Source: Actinomycetes bacterium
GTDB taxonomy: Bacteria > Actinomycetota > Actinomycetes > Nanopelagicales > Nanopelagicaceae
Reading direction: 5' to 3'
Length of the DNA stretch: 35,252 nt
Assembly (NCBI GenBank): GCA_025354785.1
Contig: JANXME010000127.1
Coordinates: 1-35,252, forward strand
Shown: positions 2,246-35,252 of the stretch, in pieces
Layout of the letters: each line of letters starts with the position of its first letter
Position numbering within the stretch: the stretch's first letter is position 1
Translations under genes and position numbers: made by a program
Notes under the pieces: generated by a model
The model's database searches: none
Told to the model about the DNA's origin: nothing
What the model saw: the letters and a program-made list of their open reading frames with translations, nothing else

Positions 2246-4717
2246 GTGAATGGCTCAATTGATCTAAGGCTTCACCATAAGCAGGGACTAGCACTATTAA
2301 GTCATGCCACCGAATTAGGCTATGGCGGCGCGGCAGGCGGTGGAAAATCTCATCTTGGTCGAGGCTCTGCTATTTACTTTTCTCATGCCATACCCGGATT
2401 AAATACCTACCTATTTCGTAGAACTAATAATGAATTACAGAAGAATCATTTTGTTGGCCCAACATCGTTCCCTGCCTTGCTTCATCCTTGGACATCCTCG
2501 GGCTATGTAGAAATTGTTAAAAACGAGATTCGCTTTGCCAATGGTCCAGATAAAAAAGACCCATTTACTAATGGTTCAAAGATATTTGCATCGCATTGCC
2601 AACACGAAAAAGATGTCTTCAATTGGCTTGGCCCCGAGATGCATTATCTTATCATTGAGCAAGCCGAACAATTCACACCGTTTATGATCCAGATGCTTCG
2701 CGGTAGGAATCGAATACCTGAAGCGCTAAACATTCCTACAGAATTTAAAGCACTATTCCCTCGTTGCCTTTATACCTTTAATCCGGGGGGGGTGGGACAT
2801 GCTTTCTTTAAGTCTAAGTTTGTTAAAGCTTTAAAGCGTGATAACTCGGGAGTGTCAGAGATTGTCGAGCAACCAGACGATGAGGGTGGAAAGAAACGCC
2901 AATTCATTCAAGCTAAGCTTGATGATAATCCTTCTGTTAATCCGGTTGAGTACCGTAAAACTCTTCGAGGACTGCCTCCCCGAATGGCTAAGGCATTAGA
3001 AGAGGGAGACTTTGACCAGGTAGTAGGTGCATTCTTTCCTGAGATTGATAGAGCGCGACATTTTATTAAGCGCCATTTTGTCCCGCCCCATCTTATGAGG
3101 ATACAAGGTACCGATTGGGGCTCATGCGGTGAGGCAGATCCATTCTCTATCGGATGGTGGTATGTAAGTGACGGCACAATTAAAGCAATTAATAGCGTGA
3201 CTAATGACGTGTTTACTATTCCGAGAGGAGCTTTGGTTTGTTACCGCTCATGGTACGGTAGAGGATTACCTAAGGTAACTGCTTCTTTAGTGGGTAGAGG
3301 GATATTATCCAAAGAAAATGGCGAGCATGTAATGGTGCGCGTTGCGGGTGGAGATATCGACGAGAAGAAGGGGCATGGTGAGAGCTTACTAGAAATCTTT
3401 AGTCAGAATGGTGTCAATTACCAAAAGGCTGATAGAAGAAGACAACCCGGGCATATGCAGTTCAGGGAGCGTCTAGTTGGCAAGAACGATCGGCCTATGA
3501 TTTACTGGTTTGAAGACTTCGAAGTAGAGGTTGAAACTATCATGAATCTTCAACATGATTTACACGATCCAAACGATTGCACTCCTTTTGACGATCACTG
3601 TTTAGATGGGGACACCCTCATTGAAACAGATACAGGAATAAAAGCGATTAAGACAATGGTGGGCACGAGTGGCTTTGTTAGGAACCATCTTGGGCAGTTA
3701 GTTCCCTTTGAAAGGTGCAAATCTTACGGCATCGACGAAATGATAAAATTGACCTTCAGTGATGGAGCAACCATTACGTGCACTCCAGATCATAAGCTGA
3801 TGAATAGTAACGGTACGTGGGAAAAAGCTATTGATTTTATAGACCAAGAGCGATATGTTTACATACCATGCGACCAATCGTTATTTCAGAAAAATGTCAA
3901 GAGTTTGACGGAATTAGATACTATAAGATCGGTGCCTATTTTGCGCACTCCTATAGACATTATTCAGTCCGACTGCATCGGTCTGTGTGGCAATATCATA
4001 ACGGGGCAATACCGGATGGCATGCACATTCACCACAAGGATCATGACAGAGCTAATAACAAAATTGAGAACCTGGAGTGTCTCAGTGCGGGAGAGCATCA
4101 GTCATATCATGCAAATCTCCCAGATAGGATTGAGTACGGGCGAATGCAGATTGAGCGCATTCGCCCCCTTGCCGCCCAATGGCATAAAAGCGAGGCCGGA
4201 AGAGAGTGGGCGAAGAAGCATTATGACGAGAAAGTTCGAGATAAGCTTTTCCAGGATCGCGAAGTGGTATGCAGACAGTGCGGCGTTACATATACTGCGA
4301 GGTTTCATAATGCCGCATTTTGCTCCAATAAGTGCAAGTCAAAATGGAGAAGAGCCTCGGGTTGTGATGATGAGGTTCGAGCTTGCGTCACTTGTCAGCG
4401 AGAGTTTAAAACCAACAAGTACAGTGCAATTAAAACATGCGGCAAAGCGTGTGGCGCAAAAAGCCAATCAATTACCAAGGTGCGTCAGAATCGAGAGCGT
4501 TCAAAGGGGTGAGACGTTCTGCCTAGACACACCAAGCCCTCATTCTTTCCTACTCGCCAATGGAATAGTGGTTCACAATTGCTACGAACAGACACGTTAT
4601 GTTTGTATGTCTCGCCCTTGGATTGAAGACGAGCCGCAACAACCCATTGATACAGTTTATAAATACCAAAATCCAACAATAAATGACCTATGGCCAAGAC
4701 AACACACGAGGCGCTAA
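2246..4717 (+). CDS. Terminase large subunit interrupted by an intein (GTG start)
   Basis: Walker A GYGGAAGGGKSH, Walker B HYLIIEQAEQ, nuclease GTDWGS...DPFSIGW; C-terminal DDH/CYEQTRYV interrupted by an intein. Extein total 496 aa, a typical TerL size. Confidence 0.92.
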   Translation: MNGSIDLRLHHKQGLALLSHATELGYGGAAGGGKSHLGRGSAIYFSHAIPGLNTYLFRRTNNELQKNHFVGPTSFPALLHPWTSSGYVEIVKNEIRFANGPDKKDPFTNGSKIFASHCQHEKDVFNWLGPEMHYLIIEQAEQFTPFMIQMLRGRNRIPEALNIPTEFKALFPRCLYTFNPGGVGHAFFKSKFVKALKRDNSGVSEIVEQPDDEGGKKRQFIQAKLDDNPSVNPVEYRKTLRGLPPRMAKALEEGDFDQVVGAFFPEIDRARHFIKRHFVPPHLMRIQGTDWGSCGEADPFSIGWWYVSDGTIKAINSVTNDVFTIPRGALVCYRSWYGRGLPKVTASLVGRGILSKENGEHVMVRVAGGDIDEKKGHGESLLEIFSQNGVNYQKADRRRQPGHMQFRERLVGKNDRPMIYWFEDFEVEVETIMNLQHDLHDPNDCTPFDDHCLDGDTLIETDTGIKAIKTMVGTSGFVRNHLGQLVPFERCKSYGIDEMIKLTFSDGATITCTPDHKLMNSNGTWEKAIDFIDQERYVYIPCDQSLFQKNVKSLTELDTIRSVPILRTPIDIIQSDCIGLCGNIITGQYRMACTFTTRIMTELITKLRTWSVSVRESISHIMQISQIGLSTGECRLSAFAPLPPNGIKARPEESGRRSIMTRKFEISFSRIAKWYADSAALHILRGFIMPHFAPISASQNGEEPRVVMMRFELASLVSESLKPTSTVQLKHAAKRVAQKANQLPRCVRIESVQRGETFCLDTPSPHSFLLANGIVVHNCYEQTRYVCMSRPWIEDEPQQPIDTVYKYQNPTINDLWPRQHTRR
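3599..4579 (+). other. Intein within TerL (327 codons: Cys1 ... His-Asn, +1 Cys extein)
   Basis: Block A CLDGDTLIETDTGIKAI; block B GATITCTPDHKLMNSNGTWEKA; block F/G VRIESVQRGETFCLDTPSPHSFLLANGIVVHN/C. Excision joins ...CTPFDDH to CYEQTRYVCM, restoring the TerL nuclease motif. Confidence 0.92.
3868..4512 (+). CDS. HNH homing endonuclease (HNH_3-like) nested out of frame inside the intein coding region
   Basis: YYKIGAYFAHSYRHYSVRLHRSVWQYHNGAIPDGMHIHHKDHDRANNKIENLECLSAGEHQSYH is an HNH_3 pattern; C-terminal zinc-finger-like CRQCG...CSNKCK...CVTCQ...CGKACG. Frame is +2 (i.e. -1) relative to TerL. Confidence 0.88.
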   Translation: MRPIVISEKCQEFDGIRYYKIGAYFAHSYRHYSVRLHRSVWQYHNGAIPDGMHIHHKDHDRANNKIENLECLSAGEHQSYHANLPDRIEYGRMQIERIRPLAAQWHKSEAGREWAKKHYDEKVRDKLFQDREVVCRQCGVTYTARFHNAAFCSNKCKSKWRRASGCDDEVRACVTCQREFKTNKYSAIKTCGKACGAKSQSITKVRQNRERSKG

Positions 4718-7483: not shown

Positions 7484-7852
7484 ATGGTATTTCCTACACG
7501 GTACGGCACTTTAGGGGAAAAGGTATTCGGTAAAGACGATCCTTTTATCAATGATATTGATTCTAATATGGTCATTGATGATTCAATGACAAAGCTTACA
7601 CACCCTGTTACTGGCGAAGTTGTTGCGAGTAAGACTAGATGGTCTCAAATAAATAAAGAGCTTAAACTTGATGTAGTGGGCAATGATATTCCAAAGTATA
7701 GGCATAGAATCCCTGATAAGATTACTGATGACTTGATTCTAGATAAGATTCAAAAAGCTGAAAGCATTGTGGGCGATCCTTCAAAATTACGAGAATTTTA
7801 TAATCGAAACGAAGAAAGACTAGAAAGACGCAGGATCCTGATTGAAAGATGA
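7484..7852 (+). CDS. Hypothetical protein, 122 aa, between portal and scaffold-like gene
   Basis: ORF in the virion cassette, no recognised motif. Confidence 0.6.
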   Translation: MVFPTRYGTLGEKVFGKDDPFINDIDSNMVIDDSMTKLTHPVTGEVVASKTRWSQINKELKLDVVGNDIPKYRHRIPDKITDDLILDKIQKAESIVGDPSKLREFYNRNEERLERRRILIER

Positions 7853-8978
7853 TAATGACCTAATAGACAGGGCGATGGATGCGGCGGAAGCTAAGCTACT
7901 TGATGCCCCTGATAGAGAGACCGAAGCGGCGGAAGCGCAGATTGTTACTCGCCAATCAGAAGAGCCGGTAAGATCGGAGCAGCAGCAATATCAACAACGA
8001 GAAAGGGAACGTGCTCCCGATGGTAAGTTTGCTAAAACCAGAAGCACACAAATTTCAGACCATAACGCTAATGTAGAGTTGACTACTGAATCAGCACCGG
8101 CAACCCCGGCAGCTGTAAATTCGGTAAATCCTCCCGCATTTTGGTCTACCGAGCAAAAAGCTCTGTTCGCTAAAGCAGATCCACAAATGCAACATCTCGT
8201 TGCCGCGTGGGAACTTGAGTTACAGCAGCGATTAAGTCGGGCAGCAAACGAAGGGCAAAGAGGCCGTGCATTTCAGAACCGAATGTATGAAGGCTACGAA
8301 CCGAAAGAGATTCAAGCGCACAAAGCGAAACTCCAGTTAAATGGGCTTCGTGATGAGGTTGATGAACTCCATAGGTATCGAGCATGGGATTCAATCTTTG
8401 AGACTGATCCTTATACTGGAATCTCTGATTTAATGCGGAAAAACGGATTCTCGCCCTATGATTTTATTGCGGGCGCTCAGGTTGGGCCGCAGTATCAAAC
8501 TGATCCACAAGTAGAAGCGAAATTACAAAGACTAGAGGAGTTGGAACAGAAGTTTTCTAATTTAGAAACTTCCTATAACACTCAGGAGGAACATGCGTTT
8601 CAAGCAAATATTGAAGACTTCAAAAGTGGAGTCGATAGTAGGGGGCAAGTAAGGCGCCCGTTTGCTCAGATGTATGCTGCTCACATTACTCAAGCTCAAA
8701 GTCAGATAATGGAAATTTATCCACACTTAGAGTTTAATAGTGCTCTTGAACATGCGTATGAGTATGTCCTAAATGAAGTATCAAAGCTTCATGGAATACC
8801 TCAAAAAACTTCTATATCAACACCAGAAAAAAAGATTGCGAACGGAAAAAAAGCCCAAGCTGCTGCTTCTAGTGTTGTTGGTGCACCTCGGTCTGATGCT
8901 GCTACTCAAAAACCTCGCGCGCGTACAATTGATGAAGCGCTTGATCGTGCTGAGGAATTGGTCTACGGAGGCCGATAA
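7842..8978 (+). CDS. Putative scaffolding-like protein
   Basis: Acidic, Gln/Ala/Glu-rich, coiled-coil-rich 378 aa located directly upstream of the major capsid gene. Confidence 0.55.
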   Translation: MKDDNDLIDRAMDAAEAKLLDAPDRETEAAEAQIVTRQSEEPVRSEQQQYQQRERERAPDGKFAKTRSTQISDHNANVELTTESAPATPAAVNSVNPPAFWSTEQKALFAKADPQMQHLVAAWELELQQRLSRAANEGQRGRAFQNRMYEGYEPKEIQAHKAKLQLNGLRDEVDELHRYRAWDSIFETDPYTGISDLMRKNGFSPYDFIAGAQVGPQYQTDPQVEAKLQRLEELEQKFSNLETSYNTQEEHAFQANIEDFKSGVDSRGQVRRPFAQMYAAHITQAQSQIMEIYPHLEFNSALEHAYEYVLNEVSKLHGIPQKTSISTPEKKIANGKKAQAAASSVVGAPRSDAATQKPRARTIDEALDRAEELVYGGR

Positions 8979-28901: not shown

Positions 28902-29013
28902 CCTCGCCCCCGAACTCTTTCTTGCGATTCTCTTTCCATTCGGCTACCACAATGTCCACATCAGTAGTTTCTTGTGTTGAACTTTAACCATTTTTATAAA
29001 ACGCTAGTTCCCC

Positions 29014-29187
29014 CCGACCGTGACCACGGAACCGAAACCAAACCCGACTGTGAGCCCGCCATCAACCCCGAACCCGTTCGCGAATTCGACCGCGAGCACA
29101 CCAACCAAGCCGAGCCCGACACGGCCCCAGAGCGCCCGCTCGCTCTAGAACCTGACCGGGACTGCCACCCTAACCGCAAGGCCGACA
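29014..29187. repeat. Degenerate phased hexanucleotide tract, 29 units, consensus about CCGANC
   Basis: Read as 6-mers CCGACC GTGACC ACGGAA CCGAAA CCAAAC CCGACT GTGAGC ... CCGACA; position 2 is C in 21/29, position 3 G in 21/29, position 4 A in 22/29, position 6 C in 18/29. Confidence 0.85.
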
Positions 29188-29207
29188 AAAACTTTTTATG
29201 TTTAATT

Positions 29208-29471
29208 TTAAGCATTTTTATAAATGCCAAAAGATTCAATAGAGCTCATAGAAATATACCAATCGTTTGGAAGTTTTTCGGCTATTGACCAGTTTTTATT
29301 CGTGGCCGCACCGGTTTCATAAACAATAGATGCGTCTTGTAAGAGTACGCAATATTCATTCACGCCCATAAGTTTACCCGCATAGATGTAACTCATGCAG
29401 TAGAATGTTACATACTCTCCTAAGAGTTTTTGTAATCCTTCTGATGAATCTTCAAACATTACTTTTTTCAT
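29208..29471 (-). CDS. Conserved phage hypothetical protein, 87 aa
   Basis: LLGEYVTFYCMSYIYAGKLMGVNEYCVLLQDASIVYETGAATNKNWSIAEKLPNDWYISMSSIESFG resembles a recurrent phage hypothetical family. Confidence 0.6.
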   Translation of the reverse strand: MKKVMFEDSSEGLQKLLGEYVTFYCMSYIYAGKLMGVNEYCVLLQDASIVYETGAATNKNWSIAEKLPNDWYISMSSIESFGIYKNA

Positions 29472-34154: not shown

Positions 34155-35252
34155 ATGTCAAACTCCACTAACTCGAAAAGTTTAGCCATTTCCTCGTCTT
34201 TAGTTCTTGATTACGCAAAAAAATATATCAATGCCGGCTTTTCTGTTCATCCCTGTAGGGGAAAAATCCCTAAGATATCTCGTTGGCAAGAAAAAACTCT
34301 CACCCTTAGTGAGTTTAAATCTTACTACAAAGAAGGGGACAATATCGGGGTAGTGATGGGGCAAAAATCCCTTATGGTTTGCGTTGATATTGATCCCAAA
34401 AATGGTGGTTTGGACTGGTACAATGCTTTAAAAGACGATTTAGGAAATCCTTTAGTTGAGGTTACAGGTTCTGGGGGCCTTCATTTATATTATAAATATC
34501 CAATTGGTGTAGATTCGATTCAGAGTAAATTGTCGTTTGTGCCAGGGGTCGATATTCTAGCAGACGGTGGGAAACAAGTTGTAACGGCCCCGAGTATTCA
34601 TGATTGCGGCGGGGAATACGTAATTAACGATTTTTATACCCTTCTTGATGTGTACGATTATGCAGACACTTTCCCCACTTGGTTACTTAAGAGCCTTTCA
34701 ACGGGGAAATACCTACCGAAACAAAGTTTTGAGATTCCTACCTTAAGTTCGGAGTCTTTGGCCATTAACTTGGCAATTGATAGGATTAAAGATTTCCCCC
34801 CTGCTATTCAAGGTAGAGCCGGTGACACTCAGACATTTAAAGCTGCTTCTCTTTTATGGGACTTAGGACTCACTCACAAAGAGGCATTAAATGTACTTAT
34901 GGAGCACTACAACCCAAGGTGTATGCCCTCATGGTCTGAGGGTGATATTAAAAAAAAGATTATCAATGCTTATAAATACACCACTAAACCGTTCGGGACA
35001 GAGCTTCCCGAAAATCAGTTTGAGGTTGAAACGCCTCTAGAAATGTTAGAGCCTAAAGAGTTTAAAGCTTCTGAAATTTCTAAGGAATCCAAGGCACCTT
35101 TGGGGCAAAAGCCTAAAAAAAAACTAGATAGTATTAACATTAGGGATTTTAGGCATTCGCTTGTTAAGCCTAAAGAGCACTTAATTGGTCCTTTTGTTCG
35201 TCAAGGACTTTCAATGGTTTACGCACCGCCTGGCGTAGGGAAAACACATTTT
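34155..35252 (+). CDS. Bifunctional primase-polymerase (prim-pol N-terminal domain), 5' part of the gene cut by the contig end; continues as ORF 60..1076 across the circular junction
   Basis: Not in ORF track (open at window end). Translates MSNSTNSKSLAISSSLVLDYAKKYINAGFSVHPCRGKIPKISRWQ...VCVDIDPKNGG...GSGGLHLYYKYP..., the prim-pol (PF09250-like) pattern. In frame with the duplicated MLEPKEF... segment at 35043. Confidence 0.85.
   Translation, partial: MSNSTNSKSLAISSSLVLDYAKKYINAGFSVHPCRGKIPKISRWQEKTLTLSEFKSYYKEGDNIGVVMGQKSLMVCVDIDPKNGGLDWYNALKDDLGNPLVEVTGSGGLHLYYKYPIGVDSIQSKLSFVPGVDILADGGKQVVTAPSIHDCGGEYVINDFYTLLDVYDYADTFPTWLLKSLSTGKYLPKQSFEIPTLSSESLAINLAIDRIKDFPPAIQGRAGDTQTFKAASLLWDLGLTHKEALNVLMEHYNPRCMPSWSEGDIKKKIINAYKYTTKPFGTELPENQFEVETPLEMLEPKEFKASEISKESKAPLGQKPKKKLDSINIRDFRHSLVKPKEHLIGPFVRQGLSMVYAPPGVGKTHF
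34984..35252 (+). repeat. Imperfect terminal repeat of positions 1-269
   Basis: Base-by-base comparison: 256/269 identical, no indels, all 13 differences between positions 80 and 177 of the start copy. Confidence 0.95.

Follow-up and report, generated by a model that had tools for sequence, protein, structure and literature searches.

A degenerate GGTCGN tract in a podovirus-like phage contig is probably the body of a small gene coupled to a predicted Sm/LSm-fold gene

The window analysed here is an entire contig of 35,252 bases from a 1.95-Mb MAG, and represents a podovirus-like phage encoding terminase, portal, major head protein, single-strand binding protein, exonuclease and helicase. A hexanucleotide tract in this contig probably makes up the body of a small phage gene that is translated, lies downstream of a gene for a protein of predicted Sm/LSm fold (gene A) and is coupled to it, the two products being candidates for a joint role on RNA. 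The small gene belongs to a family of ORFs in which Ser alternates with a second residue (S-x), and in identity and pairing the two genes very probably reproduce the arrangement of that family. The window is one worn member of a two-gene family that occurs in scores of environmental phages. The features concerned are listed in Table 1.

Table 1. Features at and around the hexamer tract, in window coordinates
Feature	Position	Strand	Basis
Gene A, 87 aa, predicted Sm/LSm-fold partner, ends ..DWYISMSSIESFGIYKNA (stop)	29208..29471	-	Partner-family identity; AF2 model; PDB structural matches
S-x dipeptide-repeat ORF, 73 aa, MLKIKHKKFLSALRLGWQSRSGSRASGRSGAVSGSAWLVCSRSNSRTGSGLMAGSQSGLVSVPWSRSGGTSVL	28994..29215	-	ATG overlapping gene A stop codon; frame, register and position as in S-x ORFs of other phages
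Degenerate (GGTCGN)29 tract, probable body of the S-x ORF	29014..29187	-	Period-6 statistics; 66% agreement with GGTCGN, shuffles reaching 52% at most
Second leader, MVKVQHKKLLMWTLW (stop)	28944..28991	-	Resembles first leader MLKIKHKKFL; tandem copies in other phages
32-nt imperfect direct repeat, left copy	28969..29000	.	84% identity to right copy
32-nt imperfect direct repeat, right copy (gene A end and S-x ORF start)	29193..29224	.	84% identity to left copy

Positions 1-269 and 34984-35252 of the window are alike over 269 nt (95.2% identity, 13 mismatches, ungapped); judged from this match, the genome appears to be circular or terminally redundant and assembled from variants. At 2246-4717 of the plus strand the large terminase reads through an intein-like insert (CLDGDTLIETDTG ... 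ANGIVVHNC), and a separate HNH-like ORF lies inside the insert in another frame (3868-4512, plus strand).

The tract comprises 29 hexamers with no indels and has 66% G+C, compared with 41% for the contig; no other 174-nt stretch of the window is as rich in GC. Its period-6 information of 69.7 bits was attained by none of 2000 shuffles of whatever kind, mononucleotide shuffles yielding 11.5 ± 4.1 bits and codon shuffles 26 ± 3.4 bits. Period 6 exceeded period 3 by 50 bits, where the window averages 7 ± 4. The compositional distinctness and strict phasing at 6 nt reported in the initial annotation were thus both borne out. The minus-strand consensus is G18 G14 T22 C21 G21 N (counts of 29), with the sixth base free. 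Agreement at the five fixed positions was 66%, compared with 41 ± 2% and a maximum of 52% for dinucleotide shuffles scored across both strands and all registers.

Similarity searches with the tract itself, at the DNA and protein levels, against phages and plasmids returned matches at chance level only, and an exact 26-mer taken from it was absent from IMG/VR. Tandem Repeats Finder reported no array at the tract down to a score of 30, and the earlier suggestion of a decayed microsatellite found no support; neither did those of a captured foreign segment and a recombination or packaging signal. A structured RNA had also been proposed. The minus-strand fold of the tract plus its flanks gave a z of -3.8, which weakened to about -2 when only the units of the tract were shuffled, and nothing in Rfam matched near the tract; the case for a structured RNA is weak.

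The three readings described in the initial annotation, X-D/E, Pro/Thr and the minus-strand X-S, are all present in the tract. The plus-strand X-D/E ORF (28974-29288) was rejected: 91% of column shuffles also leave its frame open by chance, and in the family the opposite strand rarely has a start codon within 60 nt. On the minus strand, the tract lies in an open ORF that had been overlooked, with a leader (MLKIKHKKFLSALRLGW) that begins with ATG 5' of the tract and overlaps the stop codon of gene A (ATGCTTAA, 29208-29215). The GGTCGN register extends over 29 units, where the family criterion is more than 12, and Ser occupies 7 of 12 alternating positions in the best stretch, short of the family criterion of at least 8. 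The product contains 18 Ser, 11 Gly and 7 Arg among its 73 residues. Column shuffles leave this frame open 52% of the time, and the three positions of the Ser codon are conserved alike (22, 21 and 21 of 29), synonymous changes not being in excess. The window's own copy is little independent proof of translation; the identity of its S-x ORF rests on position, register and partner and not on a coding signal of its own. With approximately 34% divergence from the repeat consensus, this copy is degenerate and may be losing its function.

The 32-nt direct repeat flanking the tract on both sides had likewise been missed. Insertion with target-site duplication, which such a repeat might suggest, was rejected: the repeat encodes two similar ORF leaders, and since the family often has leaders in tandem no insertion is needed. 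The second leader of the window differs from the first at codon positions 1 and 3 and nowhere at position 2, and is probably what is left of another tandem copy after loss of its repeat body. Tandem copies of leader plus tract are present in loci L255, L258, L303 and MW202825.

No close DNA relatives of the window were found among INPHARED phages or genomes of the same host group, and gene A, the exonuclease and the portal as single queries recovered no close relatives from IMG/VR. As these single-protein searches were empty a capsid profile was used, which retrieved IMG/VR phages at 63-89% capsid identity. One relative at 63% (IMGVR_UViG_3300045911_000146, hereafter G331) matches the tract itself, holding two clean GGTCGN hexamer tracts of 75% G+C with a unit identical to that of the window. 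In its locus (L233) near-identical S-x ORFs are dispersed at 2706-2960 and 3350-3622, one alone being preceded by an Sm-fold partner. The period-6 signal of another relative, G321, was set aside as unrelated, belonging to a gene for a secreted protein.

A scan of IMG/VR for four successive GGTCGN units returned at least 120 stretches. The proposal that other genomes be searched for hexamer tracts was thereby rewarded: among the matches listed, GGTCGN tracts occur in more than 80 IMG/VR contigs, and some were found in bacterial assemblies. Tracts among these matches range from 4 to 49 units, those of four units being at chance level in GC-rich contigs, and clean tracts have about 12-49 units, usually 20-40. 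Where the listed tracts reach 12 units or more, their G+C content is 63-83%, mostly around 75%, inside contigs of 39-68%. Their pooled columns read G 92%, G 97%, T 95%, C 95% and G 96%, followed by a sixth base that is A in 8%, C in 29%, G in 32% and T in 30%. The order of the free bases was random at lags 1-6, and no signature of block copying was seen. Locus L303 holds three tract copies and G331 two. The reverse strand of L255 (2549-3810) carries six leader-plus-tract copies in one phage, in two groups with a short gene between them, and is an extreme expansion of the S-x ORF. The bacterial-assembly loci with tracts are L374, L383, L385, L381 and L429, several of them lying close to contig ends in Myxococcota and Planctomycetota MAGs. 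Further degenerate short-period phage tracts were observed in L112 (about 7600-8050) and L102 (about 14317), one a purine-rich tract of period 18 and one a Ser-Val-Trp repeat ORF.

In the family the frame of interest reads TCG NGG, that is Ser-X with X being Trp, Arg or Gly. Among the matches listed, an ATG within 60 nt upstream and with no intervening stop was present in this frame for 48 of 56 tracts, compared with 16 and 11 in the other same-strand frames and 9, 4 and 4 on the opposite strand. The leaders are mutually similar (MNAAIMRVGYERS.., MNAAVMRAGFDMS.., MSAVILRAGFDRS.., MIILKAHEWARS..) and differ at codon positions 1, 2 and 3 in 148, 143 and 237 cases, respectively. Within tract interiors TAG was never encountered beside 383 TGG codons, against 58 NAG derived from other NGG codons (p = 1e-9); change of TGG to TGA is likewise avoided (p = 9e-4), and 2764 codons of the Ser-X frame include no stop. 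Because ATG leaders have been kept and stop codons avoided, these sequence patterns indicate that the Ser-X frame is translated in family tracts. Of the codon-level selection that was to be looked for, stop avoidance is therefore evident in the family S-x frame, whereas an excess of synonymous TCG changes is absent from both window and family. Synonymous changes of the Ser codon TCG across the family were not commoner than others (42 versus 53 and 50); either the nucleotide sequence is therefore conserved beyond the demands of the protein, or the tracts are of recent origin.

Gene A is 47-53% identical in alignment to partners encoded upstream of tracts in five other phages, and a second partner subtype is more distant from it. 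Partner genes encode approximately 85-115 aa, and the S-x ORF usually begins on the stop codon of its partner. Among the matches listed, 48 tracts had enough upstream sequence, and directly upstream lay a partner in 29, another tract in 9 and neither in 10; the last group, where a partner was not recognisable, was counted against the pairing. A strong S-x ORF follows 49 of the 60 partner matches with downstream sequence, although this set was selected through the tract and counts the window locus four times over (each time slightly below threshold), besides one other duplicate. Two phages were found by the partner protein alone: gene A as sole query identified a single deposited phage, MW202825.1, through an unannotated ORF of 66% identity, and another partner as query identified MW202573.1. 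Both have an S-x ORF directly behind the partner. The initial annotation placed the tract in no obvious gene; relatives show it to be the second, downstream member of a conserved gene pair, the outcome that had been named there as refuting that view. A partner profile (alignment A4) matched the window only among 395 same-class genomes, which is no evidence of absence because a DUF6948 control profile matched nowhere.

Gene A yielded no matches against Pfam, PHROGs, NCBIfam or PDB sequences, and an Sm1-like stretch (YIYAGKLMGVNEYCVLLQDA) was seen by eye, with no profile match. AlphaFold2 modelling from a 23-sequence alignment gave a pLDDT of 85 and a helix followed by five strands. Foldseek comparison of this model with the PDB returned almost exclusively Sm or LSm proteins among the 50 matches listed (E from 2e-4, TM 0.6-0.85), the exception being a NatC subunit at rank 48. 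A separate model of the second partner subtype (pLDDT 91) also matched mainly Sm/LSm proteins, more weakly (E from 2.5e-3). Gene A is accordingly predicted to have an Sm/LSm fold.

A parallel arrangement was found with another alphabet of residues. The strongest period-6 tract among other loci, that of MW202898.1 (L018), lies behind a DUF6948 protein (Pfam 4e-33). In seven of seven phages checked, namely MW202898.1 and six others that include Iodobacter phage PhiPLPE, Pectobacterium phage Abuela, one Vibrio phage and Chlorobiaceae phage CV-1-33, DUF6948 is followed immediately by an ORF in which Ser, Tyr or Asp alternates with Gly (x-Gly). The x codons of four clean arrays were 42 TAY, 50 TCY, 37 GAY and 1 GCY. 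Ala, one base away, is avoided, and would be common if the bases were independent; the amino acids of x-Gly arrays are therefore under selection. In the human-gut phage contigs L483 and L486 a short x-Gly repeat 3' of DUF6948 does not stand alone but continues into a C-terminal domain that looks folded (..GIKTFNGDKVYIIDDIPT..).

Whatever the role of the family, the window copy could itself be a dead remnant, a decaying pseudogene inactive at present. Its divergence from the consensus, the lack of a synonymous excess, its weak alternation and the shrinkage of the second copy to a 15-aa leader are all consistent with decay, but the frame is open and free of indels over 174 nt, the coupled start has been kept and the product is still rich in Ser, Gly and Arg. 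We regard a dead remnant as a serious possibility, though on balance not the expected one. A different reading holds that the repeats matter chiefly in the transcript, where the Sm-fold protein of the adjacent gene would bind GGUCGN units as its platform or sponge, translation being secondary. Hfq, which is counted in the Sm/LSm superfamily, offers a partial analogy in its binding of A-R-N repeats, one position of which is likewise free. The 92-97% conservation of five of the six bases (among the matches listed) with the sixth left free, the equal conservation of synonymous positions and the predicted fold of the adjacent product would all suit such a platform. One frame nevertheless strictly avoids stops and keeps a start codon, variation in the analogous DUF6948 pair tracks amino-acid alphabets, and the window folds only modestly better than shuffles, which together make an RNA platform unlikely.

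The repeat might also propagate itself at no benefit to the phage, slippage or copying spreading GGTCGN and those copies surviving that do not block an operon. Tandem and dispersed copies (six in L255, three in L303 and two in G331, one of these without a partner) would be expected of such an element, as would five fixed bases that vary little between frames and codon positions. Set against this are the recurrent site behind Sm-fold genes, the conserved leaders, the avoidance of stops, a free-base order without block-copy signature at lags 1-6 and the independent x-Gly arrays behind DUF6948, and self-propagation is considered rather improbable. Adenine-specific mutagenic reverse transcription by a diversity-generating retroelement could in principle have made the free base, given that the sixth position alone varies, that A stands at no fixed position and that C, G and T each account for about 30%. 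The window ORFs scanned against PHROGs include no reverse transcriptase and the variable codons of x-Gly arrays are not limited to adenine, so that such an origin is highly improbable.

The preferred reading, a translated S-x gene coupled to gene A, permits a tentative mechanism. The products of the Sm-fold gene and the S-x ORF may act together, the former assembling into an oligomeric ring that would bind RNA. The alternating protein would be disordered, its Arg and Trp residues (Tyr and Asp in x-Gly arrays) being spaced by Ser or Gly, and could provide a multivalent adhesive arm in trans, such that phage or host RNA would be gathered into an assembly during infection. This combination of ring and adhesive partner is put forward as a conjecture, somewhat doubtful as it stands. 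The broader proposal, that a two-gene module of tailed environmental phages builds RNA-protein condensates in the infected cell as a counterpart of eukaryotic LSm bodies, is speculative and improbable on present evidence.

Scores of phage contigs share the gene pair, yet no family model exists for the partner and most of the repeat ORFs lack annotation. Were the module to act on RNA, it would represent a minimal natural combination of Sm fold and disordered sticky partner supplied in trans, small enough for reconstitution. Strict alternation in tiny alphabets (Ser with Trp, Arg or Gly; Gly with Ser, Tyr or Asp) provides a natural test of sticker-and-spacer ideas. A separate question, how such arrays arise and persist, is posed by the combination of frozen synonymous positions and a single free base in each hexamer. 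No account of the S-x or DUF6948 pair was found in the family libraries or in the literature searched, which took in few subscription papers or preprints. Sm folds and low-complexity proteins are already known; their pairing in phages, found in neither papers nor family libraries, appears to be new.

Several known systems resemble the pair in part. MW202825.1 (Bacteriophage sp., Manatee Spring) has a homologue of gene A, 66% identical and unannotated in the record, followed by two tandem S-x ORFs whose repeat is cleaner than that of the window. DUF6948 (PF22253) resembles gene A in being a small phage protein with an alternating-dipeptide ORF immediately behind it, and structural comparison also brought up a DUF6948 model as a neighbour of gene A; the profile match between the two families is short and weak (hhalign E 3e-4, probability 40%). 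Gene A differs in having no match to the Pfam model and in the alphabet of its repeat, S-x as opposed to x-Gly. With the Sm/LSm superfamily, comprising eukaryotic Sm and LSm proteins and archaeal SmAP, the gene A model shares an N-terminal helix and five bent strands. The likeness is one of predicted fold, as gene A has no match at the sequence level and is paired with a separate repeat ORF. Some eukaryotic Sm/LSm proteins bear low-complexity tails, among them LSm14, EDC3 and, with RG tails, SmD1/D3, and likewise combine an Sm fold with a low-complexity region rich in Arg, Gly and Ser. In those proteins the region is fused in cis, whereas the phages encode it as a coupled ORF of its own, alternating strictly with a period of two residues, and homology between the repeats is not claimed.
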